Assembly: GCA_020054095.1 (NCBI GenBank) | Contig: JAGVMA010000032.1 | Span: forward strand, 1-55,555 | Direction: 5' to 3' | Source of the DNA: Bacteroidia bacterium | Lineage (GTDB): Bacteria; Bacteroidota; Bacteroidia; JADZBD01 | DNA: 55,555 bases | Shown: positions 5,637 through 17,512 of the stretch, one piece after another | How the letters are laid out: every line of letters starts with the position of its first letter | Position numbering within the stretch: position 1 is the stretch's first letter | Translations under genes and position numbers: made by a program | Notes under the pieces: generated by a model | Told to the model about the DNA's origin: nothing | Seen by the model: the letters and a program-made list of their open reading frames with translations, nothing else | Databases searched by the model: none

Positions 5637-5668
5637 AGTTCTGAGTTCTGAGTTCTGAGTTCTGAGTT
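5637..5668. repeat. Heptanucleotide tandem repeat, AGTTCTG x4 plus AGTT
   Basis: Four exact 7-nt units run from 5637 to 5664, followed by a partial unit to 5668. It is non-coding, about 180 nt before the queA start. A second 7-nt array with a related look (GATTTGA) lies inside a gene at 9547-9579. Confidence 0.9.
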
Positions 5669-8873: not shown

Positions 8874-10040
8874 TTATATGATTTTTTGTACCGATGTTTT
8901 TTCGTTTATACTCAACTTCTCGGTGTCGAGATTTGCTATTAGATTTAAACCGCATTTTTTACCTTGTTCAATGCTACCGAAAAAATTATCAATGCCTAAA
9001 AACTCAGCACCATTTATTGTTGCCCATTGCAGCAGTTCTGCAAATTCAATTTCAGGATAATTTTTTTGTATTGTTTTCATTTCATCTAAAATGCTTAGCG
9101 AATAATTACTTGCCAAACTATCTGTGCCAATGGTCATTTTAAAACCTGACATGCGCAACAAATTATAATCAGGTAATTTATTTTCGATGTATAAGTTGGC
9201 ATTAGGGCAAGTGCACAGATAGATTTTAGATTTTATCCCTGCGGTTTTAGATTTTATAAATTGCAAATCTTCGGCACCGGTATAAGTATTATGTACTAAC
9301 TGAATTTTTTTTGATTGTAACATTTGTGGAAGCGAATAATGCACTGATGTTTTTCCTGCCTTTATCCAATTTAGCGCAATGCCTAATTTTGAAAACGCAT
9401 CAAACAAATCACCGGTCCTGTTTTTAAATAAATCATCTTCCGCTTTACTTTCCTGGTTATGTATGCACGTTATTTCTTGCTGCAAATTATCTATTATAGT
9501 AAATAATGCAGGGCTAACTGTATAAGGGGCATGAGGGCTCAAAGAAGATTTGAGATTTGAGATTTGAGATTTGAGATTTTTTTCTCTTGAAAAAATCTCA
9601 TCCGCTTTTTCGGCCCCCAAATCAAAAAGCTCGATAAAGGTGTGATAAAATAAATTTTGTTTTGCTTTTTGTTCAAACGTATGATTTGTATTTGAAATAC
9701 CGCCCACAGCCACAATGCCGTTTTTTATCATTTCGCTTTCGGCATTGGCAATTGCATTTTTAATTTCCGTTTCTGAAAACGAATTTCGTTTTGGCACCAG
9801 CTCACCAATAAAACTCGCCATTCCTTTTTGCGCTGCCACCTGATCTTTTAAGTGCGATAATTCTAAATGGCAATGTGTGTTAACAAAGCCGGGCGTAATT
9901 ATTCCATCGTAGTAAACAGCATCTGCATGCCTGAAAGAAAATACTTCCATCACCGTTCCATCATCACTAACAGCCACCGTTCCGTTTTTTTTGGGAGCAG
10001 AGGTTATCGGAAAAATAAAATTTGCAGAAAAGTACTTCAA
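8874..10040 (-). CDS. Amidohydrolase, probable aminodeoxyfutalosine/nucleoside deaminase of menaquinone synthesis
   Basis: The 388-residue protein belongs to the metal-dependent amidohydrolase superfamily. It has the HxH motif (His56, His58, in GFVNTHCHLELSH), a second metal His in PHAPYTVS, VHNTYTG with a further His, and the late Asp in IGTDSLASN. It precedes no other nucleoside gene but follows mqnC at 9 nt in the same direction. In the branched futalosine pathway, aminodeoxyfutalosine is deaminated by an amidohydrolase before MqnB and MqnC act. That makes an MqnX-like role the best guess; a chlorohydrolase/guanine-deaminase-like role is the alternative. A 7-nt repeat array lies in the coding sequence just before the PHAPYTVS motif. 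Confidence 0.75.
   Translation of the reverse strand: MKYFSANFIFPITSAPKKNGTVAVSDDGTVMEVFSFRHADAVYYDGIITPGFVNTHCHLELSHLKDQVAAQKGMASFIGELVPKRNSFSETEIKNAIANAESEMIKNGIVAVGGISNTNHTFEQKAKQNLFYHTFIELFDLGAEKADEIFSREKNLKSQISNLKSSLSPHAPYTVSPALFTIIDNLQQEITCIHNQESKAEDDLFKNRTGDLFDAFSKLGIALNWIKAGKTSVHYSLPQMLQSKKIQLVHNTYTGAEDLQFIKSKTAGIKSKIYLCTCPNANLYIENKLPDYNLLRMSGFKMTIGTDSLASNYSLSILDEMKTIQKNYPEIEFAELLQWATINGAEFLGIDNFFGSIEQGKKCGLNLIANLDTEKLSINEKTSVQKII
9547..9579. repeat. Heptanucleotide tandem repeat inside the amidohydrolase gene
   Basis: Four exact GATTTGA units (9547-9574) and a partial unit follow each other inside the coding sequence at about residues 154-164, where they encode NLKSQISNLKS on the minus strand. 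As 7 is not a multiple of 3, gain or loss of one unit would shift the frame ahead of the metal-binding PHAPYTVS motif. The frame is open in this sequence. Confidence 0.9.
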
Positions 10041-13853: not shown

Positions 13854-15555
13854 TTAATTTTTCACAAAACGCGAAACAAAATTATTTCCTTCTGTTACAA
13901 TTCGCAGCGTGTAAATTCCATCGGTTAAATCGGTAATGTTAATTTGTGTTGCACTTGCGTAAATAGTTTTTACCAAAGCGCCTGTTGCCGAATAAATTTC
14001 TGTAAAAATTATTTTTTCCGTTTCGGGCAATTGCACATTTAAAATTGTTTGAGCCGGATTAGGGAAAACATTAATTACAGTATTGTTTTTTACATCTGCT
14101 AAGCCCGATGACAAACCGCAGCCACAAGCGCTAAGTGTAGTGTTGTTAAAATGGCTAATGATAGAATCGGCACGAGTTTGCAACCGAACAATGCTTGTAT
14201 CTATTCCGCTTGCGGTATAATCTCTGCTGAAAACGTAAGCAACATCAAGTGTTTTTGTTGAACCTGGTTGCATGGTAAACGGTCCGCAAATACCAAGCCC
14301 TCTTCTGTCTCCGGGTTGGCTTCCGCCTGTTACCTCATCCCAATCAGATTGTGGTGGGCCAGGACTTAGACATGTCCCGCCAACTCCAAATTCATATTGG
14401 TGGTCGGTATTTCCCGGAAAAGCAAAATAACATGGGGAACCAGTGTTATATCCCGTGCCTCCATAACATAAAGGAGTATAGTCTCTCCATTGGCCACCCA
14501 AGTAAGCATAAAAATCTGAGTCGTTAGTTGGGTTCCCTCTAACACTTGCATCATTTTCATAATACATAAATCTATTTAAAGCATAATCTTCGCCCGGCTC
14601 GTCAGTTATACAGTTTCTATTATTATCATCGTTATCGTTAGTGGGTACAGTAGGCCCTTTTAAAAATACCACGCCTTGTGCCGATAATTTTGTTCCGTAT
14701 CCACCAACGTTAGCATCATCATTAGCATCCCCATTATATCCATAATACATTTTGCGAGGCACATCGCAGCCAATGTAATCATCAGCATAGTTGCCCACAT
14801 CTAAATCTGTCCACATGCCCAAGTACACATTGTTGTAATTTGTAAACGAGCGGTTAATAATATCGTAGTGAATAAAAACGGTATTCATTAGTGCGCTATC
14901 GGCAGGGCAATTAAATTGGTAAGCCATTCCTCTAATTTCTATTCCAAATGGCAGGCCACCGGTTTCGGTATGTGTAAAACCTTGCGTGTTATCGTTGTAA
15001 ACAAAAAATATTGCCTGGTCGCCACGTATTAAGGGATAATCGCCATTAGTTGGGCTGTATATTCCATCGGCATTAGCATCGTGAAATGGTGCAACATTGT
15101 AAGGGTAACTTCCTCCCGGGCCATTGCCCGGCCAATTGGTAATAATGCTTGGCGTGCTAGTGTATAATCCGTTTATAAACGAATCAATGGTACATTTATT
15201 TATTTTCCAAACTCTTGACCATTGGTTAGATATAGTTGTTTGGCATTGTGCATTGTTTGTGTCTAAAGGTCCGGGCCAAAAATCGGTTCCGGCTTGGCGA
15301 TAGGTTTGACAAGCAGTATGTAGGTTATTGTTTGCATCTATGCCGCCAACCCACAAGTTCCCGGCAAATATGGTATGTTTGCCGCTCCCCTTTGGAGCTT
15401 CAAACTTTGCACTGCTAAAATCCCAAAACAAATCACCCGCAGGGTTAATGCGTGCTTTAATATTATTGATATTCTAAATCGGCAAATTGGCTTTGTGCGA
15501 AAGAGCTAATTATGGTTGAGCAGGTGAGGGTGAATATAAAGAGTGATTTTTTCAT
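13854..15555 (-). pseudogene. T9SS-sorted secreted protein split from its signal peptide by a +1 frameshift
   Basis: Two frames together make one protein of the T9SS cargo type. The first (from ATG at 15555) encodes a signal peptide, KKSLFIFTLTCSTIISSFAQ, then SQFADLEYQ and a stop. The second contains NINNIKARINPAGDLFWDF and runs about 530 residues, with KGSGKHTIFAGNLWVGG, several Asp/Asn-rich segments and a C-terminal sorting domain (VFPNPAQTILNVQL ... DGIYTLRIV ... FVKN). Removing one T of the pair at 15472-15473 gives ...ADLDINNIKARINPAG..., a smooth family-like joint, so one extra base is the likely cause. No ATG near the start of the second frame has an export signal. Either the gene is recently broken or the assembly has a one-base error. 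Confidence 0.8.
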
Positions 15556-15597: not shown

Positions 15598-15658
15598 GGG
15601 CTTGTGAATCGGCTCGGTTGAGCAACATCCCGGTTTACTGCCGAGCCGATTCAAGCCC
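15598..15658. repeat. Long GC-rich hairpin upstream of the T9SS gene
   Basis: Bases 15598-15617 pair with 15641-15658 over 18 bp (outer part GGGCTTG with CAAGCCC, inner part AATCGGCTCGG with CCGAGCCGATT), with one 2-nt bulge and a 23-nt loop. It is far more GC-rich than its surroundings. It would lie in the 5' leader of the minus-strand T9SS gene or be an inserted structural element. A terminator is less likely because no T tract follows. Confidence 0.85.
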
Positions 15659-15730
15659 TTACTCTGATTTCTGATGCTAAACTATTTCATATTTAAAAGC
15701 AGTTTTTACTTATTTTTTGCTCAACTCTAT

Positions 15731-15876
15731 AGGTCTGAGAACTTGTTTTTATCGCCATCGTCAAAACAATGCGCTGAAAATCAATTAGTTATTGATTGTT
15801 TATTGACGCAAAAACAGACAGGTCTGAGCTGTTTTTAAATTTCCCCAAAAACATACAGGTCTGAGAATATGTTTTT
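15731..15876. repeat. Three copies of AGGTCTGAG, two in stem-loops with covarying stems
   Basis: AGGTCTGAG occurs at 15731-15739, 15820-15828 and 15857-15865. Copy 2 is enclosed by AAAAACAG (15810-15817) and CTGTTTTT (15829-15836). Copy 3 is enclosed by AAAAACATA (15847-15855) and TATGTTTTT (15868-15876). The stems differ but still pair, while the loop is constant. Copy 1 is followed by a similar TTGTTTTT arm but lacks a matching left arm. Confidence 0.8.
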
Positions 15877-15979
15877 ACATTTGAAATATGAGTATGAAAA
15901 AATAAAAAATCAATAAAATCAATATTTTTGGAATAAAATGATTGCTTAATACACTTCAAAACAATAGTCAAGAACATAC

Positions 15980-17512
15980 ATGTCCAGCCGCCCATCTGAT
16001 TTTTTATTCAAACTCATAAAATCGCTCACCAGAGCCGAAAAACGCTATTATAAAATAGCCGAAGAGGCATTTAATCCGCTGGAAAATAAAATTACAGTTC
16101 ATATTTTTGATGCCATAAATAATCAAGATGAATACAACGATGAAGCATTGAAAAAAAAATTTGGCAACACATTTAACACCACCAATAAATCGCGTGTTTA
16201 TGATTCTATTCTTCGAAGCTTAGATGCTTTTCATGCCAACTCATCTATAGATGCACAAATAAAACACGATTTGCACTGTGCCGAAATATTGTATAAAAAA
16301 GGCCTTTACGACCAGTGCGCCAAACTGCTGATGAGTACAAAAAAGATGGCGCAAAAATACGAGCGTCATTCGGGCTTATTCGAGATTAACTTGTGGGAGA
16401 AAAAAATTATTGAAAAAGACAACTACTCCGGCAAAACCGAAAAAGACATTAACAGTTTTTTGCACGATGATTTATTGATAGGTGAAAAGGTGAAAAATTT
16501 TAATGATTACTGGAACATTAAAAGCCGCCTGTTTATGATACTGAACAAGCGCGGCAAAGTGCGTAACCAAGAAGAGCTTGCAAATTTTAAAAGTATTATT
16601 GATAATACGTTACTTAAAACAGTTGAAAGCGCCTTATCTACCGAAACAAAATACTTGTTTAATCATATTTACAGCGCTTATTATTTTGGAGTGGGCGATT
16701 ACACTAATTGTTCCGATTTTTTGAAACGCAACGTAGATTTAATTGAAACCAATATTCCCATTTTTGAAGAAGAGCCGAATATTTATTTTTCAGTACTCAC
16801 CAATATTATTTATGTATCGAGCCAGTTAAAAAACTATGACGATACATTTATGTATCTGCGCAAGTTGCGCGAAGTGCCACAAAAATTTAATGTAGATAAA
16901 AACGAAGATATGGAGCTGAAACTTTTTTCGAGCGCTAATAGTATCGAGATTACAATCTACAATCAGCTTGGCGAATTTGAAAGAGCAATAGAGCTTGTTC
17001 CCAAGATTGAACTCGGCCTTTTAAAATATGCCGACAATTTAAACAAAGTGCGTGTGGCTTATTTTTGCTCTTGTATCGCCATCGCTTATTTTGGTGTGGC
17101 GCAATACCAGCAGGCTTTAAAGTGGAACAACAAAATACTTAACAATAAAGATATAGATGATGTGGAAGAGGCGCACTGCCATGCCGAAATGTTTAACGTA
17201 ATCGTGCACATTGAGTTAAAGAACGATAAAATTATTCCCTACATGCTTGCATCGGCACAGCGCTATTTAAAAAACAAAAAGCGCGTTTATAAATTCGAAA
17301 ACGTGTTTTTAAATTTTGTGGGCAAGATGATAAAGGAAAAAAATAAAGCAGCCAGCAAAGATTTATATCAGCAGTTTTTAGACGACATTAACCAGCTTAG
17401 ATTAGATGCTTTTGAAAGTCGTGCTTTCGAGCATTTTGATTATGTATCTTGGGCAGAAAGTAAACTAAGCAGCTTTACTTTCAGAGATATAGTGGAACAA
17501 AAAGCAAAATAG
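15980..17512 (+). CDS. Cytoplasmic helical-repeat (TPR-like) protein, function unknown
   Basis: The 510-residue protein has no signal peptide or membrane helix. After MSSRPSDFLFKLIKSLTRAEKRYYK it is almost entirely helical with repeated Tyr/Leu/Ala spacing (for example YKKGLYDQCAKLL, YFGVGDYTNCSDFL and YFGVAQYQQALKWNN), which looks like degenerate tetratricopeptide repeats. I believe similar TPR-like proteins are widespread in Bacteroidota with no assigned role. There are no enzymatic motifs. The upstream region is unusually rich in foldbacks, which may bear on its expression. It is convergent with thiL, with 6 nt between the stops. Confidence 0.8.
   Translation: MSSRPSDFLFKLIKSLTRAEKRYYKIAEEAFNPLENKITVHIFDAINNQDEYNDEALKKKFGNTFNTTNKSRVYDSILRSLDAFHANSSIDAQIKHDLHCAEILYKKGLYDQCAKLLMSTKKMAQKYERHSGLFEINLWEKKIIEKDNYSGKTEKDINSFLHDDLLIGEKVKNFNDYWNIKSRLFMILNKRGKVRNQEELANFKSIIDNTLLKTVESALSTETKYLFNHIYSAYYFGVGDYTNCSDFLKRNVDLIETNIPIFEEEPNIYFSVLTNIIYVSSQLKNYDDTFMYLRKLREVPQKFNVDKNEDMELKLFSSANSIEITIYNQLGEFERAIELVPKIELGLLKYADNLNKVRVAYFCSCIAIAYFGVAQYQQALKWNNKILNNKDIDDVEEAHCHAEMFNVIVHIELKNDKIIPYMLASAQRYLKNKKRVYKFENVFLNFVGKMIKEKNKAASKDLYQQFLDDINQLRLDAFESRAFEHFDYVSWAESKLSSFTFRDIVEQKAK

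Follow-up and report, generated by a model that had tools for sequence, protein, structure and literature searches.

Divergent promoter pairs that serve a regulator and its target are a known layout of LysR-type and AraC-type systems, and among the TPR regulators of the Rap/NprR (RRNPP) group, NprR has an N-terminal HTH. To our knowledge, few operator motifs have been described for the unusual promoters of Bacteroidota (TTTG/TAnnTTTG), and there is hardly any description of how genes for type IX secretion cargo are specifically controlled; our literature search on such control found nothing. The binding sites of LytTR factors are short direct repeats located immediately ahead of the -35 region (PMC6193735, PMC4847170). 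In the ribose-utilisation system of Bacteroides thetaiotaomicron, RusR is regarded as controlling the locus BT2803-2809, and ribose was reported to leave rusR expression unaltered (PMC12596196). Judging from its name and the adjacency of the genes, RusR would correspond to BT2802.

We analyzed a 55,555-nucleotide stretch of a Bacteroidia genome, referred to below as the window. The initial annotation had pointed out three copies of AGGTCTGAG within 146 bases of non-coding DNA, and both the count and the non-coding status hold. The exact copies are all on the plus strand (15731-15739, 15820-15828, and 15857-15865), the rest of the window contains none, the chance expectation is 0.05 per window, and none of 100 shuffles reached three copies. 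The region and the two genes that flank it comprise the following features.

13854..15555, minus strand: divergent type IX cargo gene, with a signal peptide at 15555 and a C-terminal Por_Secre_tail domain (5.3e-11)
15605..15653, strand not applicable: 13-bp perfect inverted repeat TGAATCGGCTCGG, within the 5' UTR predicted for the cargo gene
15677..15684, minus strand: -7 box TAGTTTAG predicted for the divergent secreted-protein gene, at an offset of 51 to the site 1 core
15728..15738, plus strand: site 1, TATAGGTCTGA, antisense relative to the divergent secreted-protein gene
15817..15827, plus strand: site 2, GACAGGTCTGA, 89 nt past site 1 and 37 nt ahead of site 3
15854..15864, plus strand: site 3, TACAGGTCTGA, whose TACA T precedes the -7 box of the gene at 15980 by 69 nt
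15923..15930, plus strand: predicted -7 box TATTTTTG of the gene at 15980, following the Bacteroidota TAnnTTTG consensus
15950..15960, plus strand: site 4, TACACTTCAAA, of a weaker flavour (PWM score 16.2), 30 nt ahead of the start codon
15977..15987, plus strand: site 5, TACATGTCCAG (PWM score 11.9), overlapping the start codon at 15980
15980..17512, plus strand: gene for a 510-aa TPR-like helical-repeat protein, a distant relative of NCBIfam BT_2802_fam (RusR-like)

The core motif of the sites is TACAnnTC(T/A)(A/G)A. The window contains five such sites rather than three, at spacings of 89, 37, 96, and 27; the two weaker ones, at 15950 and 15977, were added with the derived weight matrix. Measured from the predicted -7 boxes, the GAC core of site 1 is at exactly 51 nt upstream for the divergent gene and site 3 is at 69 nt upstream for the TPR gene, and the array would thus serve two promoters.

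We consider it likely that the array constitutes the operator set of the divergent promoter pair and of a small type IX cargo regulon, and a regulatory role of the array is well supported by the sequence comparisons described below. Between the two divergent promoters, at least five operators would be available to a single sequence-specific DNA-binding regulator. Copy 1, which is antisense and about 60 bp upstream of the predicted start of cargo transcription, probably activates the cargo gene. Copies 2 and 3 are upstream of the predicted TPR-gene promoter, and the two weaker sites would fall in the leader, with the start codon covered by the last of them; feedback on the TPR gene is the probable role of these four sites. 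Away from this locus, the site would also control a small number of further type IX cargo genes in such genomes.

This arrangement resembles the LysR-type and AraC-type pairs in that a regulator-like gene and a divergent target have intergenic operators in common, including a site in the leader. It differs in that the linked gene is TPR-like and has no recognised DNA-binding domain, in that the targets are type IX cargo genes, and in that the last site covers the start codon. The array would be an ordinary kind of element, placed in a circuit that we found described nowhere, in which type IX cargo and a TPR/BT2802-like gene have a control region in common.

The putative operator motif at the TPR gene and its orthologues

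Relatives of the TPR gene were collected as 37 named loci, mostly from metagenome-assembled Bacteroidia/Flavobacteriales genomes, and 35 upstream regions were scored. The pattern TACAnnTC[TA][AG]A occurs 61 times in the 13.5 kb upstream of these 35 orthologues (4.5 per kb), whereas 607 kb of flanking DNA contain 32 copies (0.053 per kb), so that its density is 86 times that found elsewhere; the loci are often related, so the counts do not represent independent events. The initial annotation had held that copies upstream of homologues of this gene would support regulation, and the contrast strongly bears this out. All but two of the 61 copies are in the sense orientation.

An additional copy of the motif overlaps the start codon at 29 of the 35 orthologue loci. 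The nucleotides ahead of the orthologue ATG, which are non-coding, read AATATAC or AAATTAC, and the flavour of the start copy (ATAC or TTAC) matches that of the upstream copies by lineage. This copy has a conserved T at -3 (TAC-ATG), which we count for the operator reading, since it opposes the preference of Bacteroidota for A at -3 of start codons (PMC6847099).

The spacings between sites are conserved (37 nt, 16 times; 45 nt, 11 times; 42 nt, six times; 90 nt, five times), while the intervening DNA is not, and several orthologue loci have the layout 90-37-42-153-45 in common. The spacing and promoter tables were drawn up after the data had been seen and the patterns were refined on the data described here; the whole-genome contrast and the offset scan, both given below, have controls of their own. 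Three loci (L085, L014, and L009) fit poorly, with one upstream site or none.

The genome-wide distribution was assessed with the strict pattern WTATACATGTCWRA. In 20 genomes with the gene, this pattern gave 44 matches, against three for the reversed control, and 34 of the 44 are at the orthologue itself. In 47 genomes of the same class that have no close orthologue, it gave eight matches against nine for the control, as expected by chance. The motif therefore tracks the TPR gene. The source genome has no match to WTATACATGTCWRA and uses another flavour of the motif.

The TPR/BT2802-like family is large and paralogous, with eight to 25 matches in several Bacteroidota genomes and up to 25 in a single one (G006, G019, and G047). 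Upstream of 38 broad-family paralogues, the motif was absent except for one doubtful pair in L072, which is the chance rate overall; a family-wide property of BT2802-like genes was thus rejected. The motif would offer the first functional handle on this family, and its exact promoter geometry and its tie to one gene across dozens of genomes lend it to a ready test of the binder.

The source genome was scanned by pattern. Outside the window, its 3.17 Mb contain only two exact copies of AGGTCTGAG, on contigs C45 and C54, which brings the genome total to five. A second array, with four sites at spacings of 90, 37, and 90, is located on contig C40 between paaA and a gene for a 1402-aa cargo protein. 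The 37- and 90-nt spacings associated with site 2 recur in the orthologues and in this second array. Most of the nine sites in the source genome follow a consensus of approximately cAAAAACATACAGGTCTGAGnnnnGTTTTT, with a left-hand A-tract and a right-hand T-tract. The matches on C45 (L001) and C54 (L002) of the source genome (G000) fall in a common intergenic stretch of 225 bp, 81% identical, which includes one operator site and also a promoter-like TTTGAC; a small ORF that follows the stretch on C45 reads like an XRE-type regulator.

Sites at type IX cargo promoters

Ten matches were found off the orthologue locus. Three of them are in ORFs or at their starts. The other seven fall between genes, in antisense orientation, and precede genes whose products have a signal peptide as assessed by eye only. 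Seven of eight complete targets (those off the locus, those on C40 and C45 of the source genome, and the pair in L082) carry Por_Secre_tail. The base rate among ORFs in the loci is 32 of 416, itself raised by the cargo genes adjacent to the arrays, and the enrichment has a P of about 1e-7. A divergent gene with a secreted product, often bearing a sorting domain, likewise lies upstream of the TPR gene at many orthologue loci, and in many cases the most distal site stands in the 50-52 nt relation to the -7 box of this neighbour.

The promoter geometry was read against the Bacteroidota -7 box consensus TAnnTTTG (PMC2483708, PMC6847099), the boxes being predictions in AT-rich DNA. In nine of 11 cargo promoters, a TAnnTTTG-like -7 box follows the core of the site at 50-51 nt, often with a TTTG at 27. 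A tenth promoter with this geometry, on C45, was read by eye (TTAATTAG), and G079 has no -7 box at offset 51. When 735 kb were scanned for the core together with a -7 box, there were 18 occurrences at offset 51, a few of which are arrays read from the TPR side, and three at offset 50, against 0 to 6 at every other offset within 36-69. Since the -7 box starts at -12 (PMC6847099), the site at the cargo promoters would be centred near -60, a position typical of an activator. On the TPR side, 12 orthologues and the window have a sense site at 69-70 nt ahead of the predicted -7 box.

The cargo promoter of the window has no TTTG -33 box that we could find. The reading frame of its gene is broken near 15463-15475, where the frame of the signal peptide differs from that of the remainder (13854-15431). 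This interruption may be a mutation or an assembly error and, because of it, the target in the window may be dead, decaying, or misassembled. The inverted repeat TGAATCGGCTCGG in the leader of the same gene is in an odd place for a terminator, and it was not assigned to the array.

Alternative readings of the repeats

The initial annotation had described stems that covary around a constant loop and had suggested a short RNA element, a protein-binding array, or a small mobile repeat. Both stems do exist (AAAAACAG/CTGTTTTT, 8 bp; AAAAACATA/TATGTTTTT, 9 bp), but the covariation disappears against re-dealt flanks: the stem length at the sites of the source genome is 6.0, compared with 6.18 after the left and right flanks had been re-dealt among sites, and that at the orthologue sites is at the null (3.0 vs 2.92). 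The flanks (c)AAAAAcata...GTTTTT are common to all nine sites of the source genome, to varying degrees, and the apparent stems would therefore be a by-product of these A- and T-tracts. Compensatory changes in a conserved pairing were seen neither at the orthologue sites nor at those of the source genome, the 201-nt region does not surpass its shuffles in folding (z = -0.62), and Rfam gave no match at gathering or permissive thresholds. Antisense sites at other promoters further disfavor an RNA element, as does the position of copies 1-3 outside the predicted transcript of the TPR gene. A mobile repeat could draw on the 225-bp stretch of C45 and C54, which contains a site. However, five exact copies in the genome do not amount to a dispersed family, many similar copies at unrelated places, as in REP- or MITE-like elements, were not found, and the sites keep fixed positions relative to the -7 boxes and fixed spacings while the sequence between them is not conserved. 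Thus, even with the 8-9-bp stems of two copies in its favor, a stem-loop RNA element or a small mobile repeat is extremely improbable, and of the suggested readings it is the protein-binding array, as predicted from sequence, that gains support.

A protein could also bind the repeats in its own mRNA, with the last repeat covering the start codon, and so regulate its own translation. The predominantly sense orientation of the TPR-gene sites (59/61) and the site at the start codon fit such translational autoregulation. Copies 1-3, however, lie upstream of the predicted -7 box and would hence not be part of the mRNA, the stems are not conserved, and the divergent cargo gene and other genes bear antisense sites at a fixed distance upstream of a predicted promoter; we regard this explanation as improbable. 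Control of the phenylacetate (paa) operon, with the TPR protein as the paa regulator, was suggested by the arrays upstream of paaA in G000 (L122, C40) and G066 (L212, C20) and by the presence of paaA in 36 of 39 genomes, a count made among orthologue-bearing genomes only. Yet among 28 paaA upstream regions read, only those of G000 and G066 have sense sites, and in both genomes paaA has a divergent type IX cargo gene, which carries the site at 51 nt. Since each array would also serve that cargo gene and the other paaA upstream regions read are empty, the paa operon was dropped as a target, and it appears a very improbable one. The evidence from orthologue upstream regions and cargo promoters is best accommodated by the operator array.

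Candidate binders of the putative operator sites

The 510-aa protein has BT_2802_fam as its nearest NCBIfam family, labelled 'ribose utilization protein'. The profile NF058569 matches residues 6-504 of 510 (8.5e-53), and we describe the protein as a distant relative rather than a member of the family since the match reaches 180 bits and the curated cut-off is 550. It resembles RusR/BT2802 in this match over the whole profile, whereas RusR governs a sugar locus and the genes linked here are type IX cargo genes; in addition, rusR is reported to be unaltered by ribose, while the gene at 15980 bears a rich operator array. Among the window ORFs read, we recognised none for ribose utilisation. A Pfam search with the protein gave no significant match. 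Its AlphaFold2 model is all-helical (pLDDT 87), and Foldseek likened this model to Rap, NprR, LGN, and MalT domain III, consistent with a TPR superhelix. The E values for Rap and NprR were 4.6e-4 to 2e-3, and the Rap proteins include RapF bound to ComA. The likeness to the Rap/NprR regulators is one of the predicted superhelix; no sequence relation to them was found, and an N-terminal HTH like that of NprR is not evident. The N-terminus consists of five helices with a net positive charge (about +4.9 on average), and the model of the N-terminal domain had no match in the PDB at E<0.001 and showed no DNA-binding fold or HTH.

Our tentative choice for the binder of the sites is the TPR protein, alone or in a complex, with a chance close to even, because the motif tracks its gene and autoregulation is the usual reason for such a link. 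The net-positive five-helix N-terminus and, by analogy, the status of the related RusR as a regulator argue in the same direction, while the modelled TPR superhelix, which shows no N-terminal DNA-binding fold, argues against it. That the TPR-like BT2802-family protein binds DNA on its own, and would represent a regulator class with no known DNA-binding fold that is widespread in Bacteroidota, seems doubtful at present. If it did, this protein would recognise a directional site at positions ranging from -60 at cargo promoters to the start codon of its own gene, and would tune which type IX proteins are exported.

Alternatively, the same operator array might be bound by a LytTR-type response regulator acting with a Reg_prop histidine kinase, in which case the TPR protein would be only a target or a Rap-like modulator of that regulator. 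Response_reg+LytTR and Reg_prop/His_kinase proteins are encoded within about 10 kb of the TPR gene at about 16 loci, in two arrangements (loci including L083, L086, L087, L088, L092, L100, L104, L106, and L111), and the structural likeness of the TPR model to NprR and to Rap proteins, including RapF bound to ComA, would suit such a modulator. Some LytTR repeats resemble the half-site, e.g., ACATCTTAT, and the sites, like the operators of AgrA, ComE, YpdB, and HdrR/BrsR, are short and directional and have an activator-like position just upstream of the promoter, in agreement with the direct repeats bound upstream of -35 (PMC6193735, PMC4847170). On the other hand, LytTR binding requires 9-11-bp repeats 10-13 bp apart, a spacing of about 21, whereas the spacings here, with the core TACAnnTC(T/A)AA, peak at 37, 45, 42, and 90 nt, and a LytTR operator architecture was rejected on this ground. 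The site is also mostly missing upstream of the linked regulator/kinase units: among the 12 checked, L111 has a site, that in L106 overlaps the gene start, and that in L087 is weak. Moreover, the regulator/kinase pair was not found within the 55-kb window. A LytTR response regulator is accordingly an unlikely binder in our estimate, and a regulator of another kind is a possibility that we rate as low, if a little less so. Both the TPR protein and a LytTR regulator could be reconciled by a Rap-like feedback, in which the TPR protein would restrain a regulator that activates the TPR and cargo genes.

Elsewhere in the window, we observed two simple repeats, both perfect tandem arrays of a heptanucleotide, whose length could vary. 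AGTTCTG is repeated 4.6 times in an intergenic region (5637-5668), and AGATTTG is repeated 4.9 times (9546-9579) inside an ORF on the minus strand (8874-10040).
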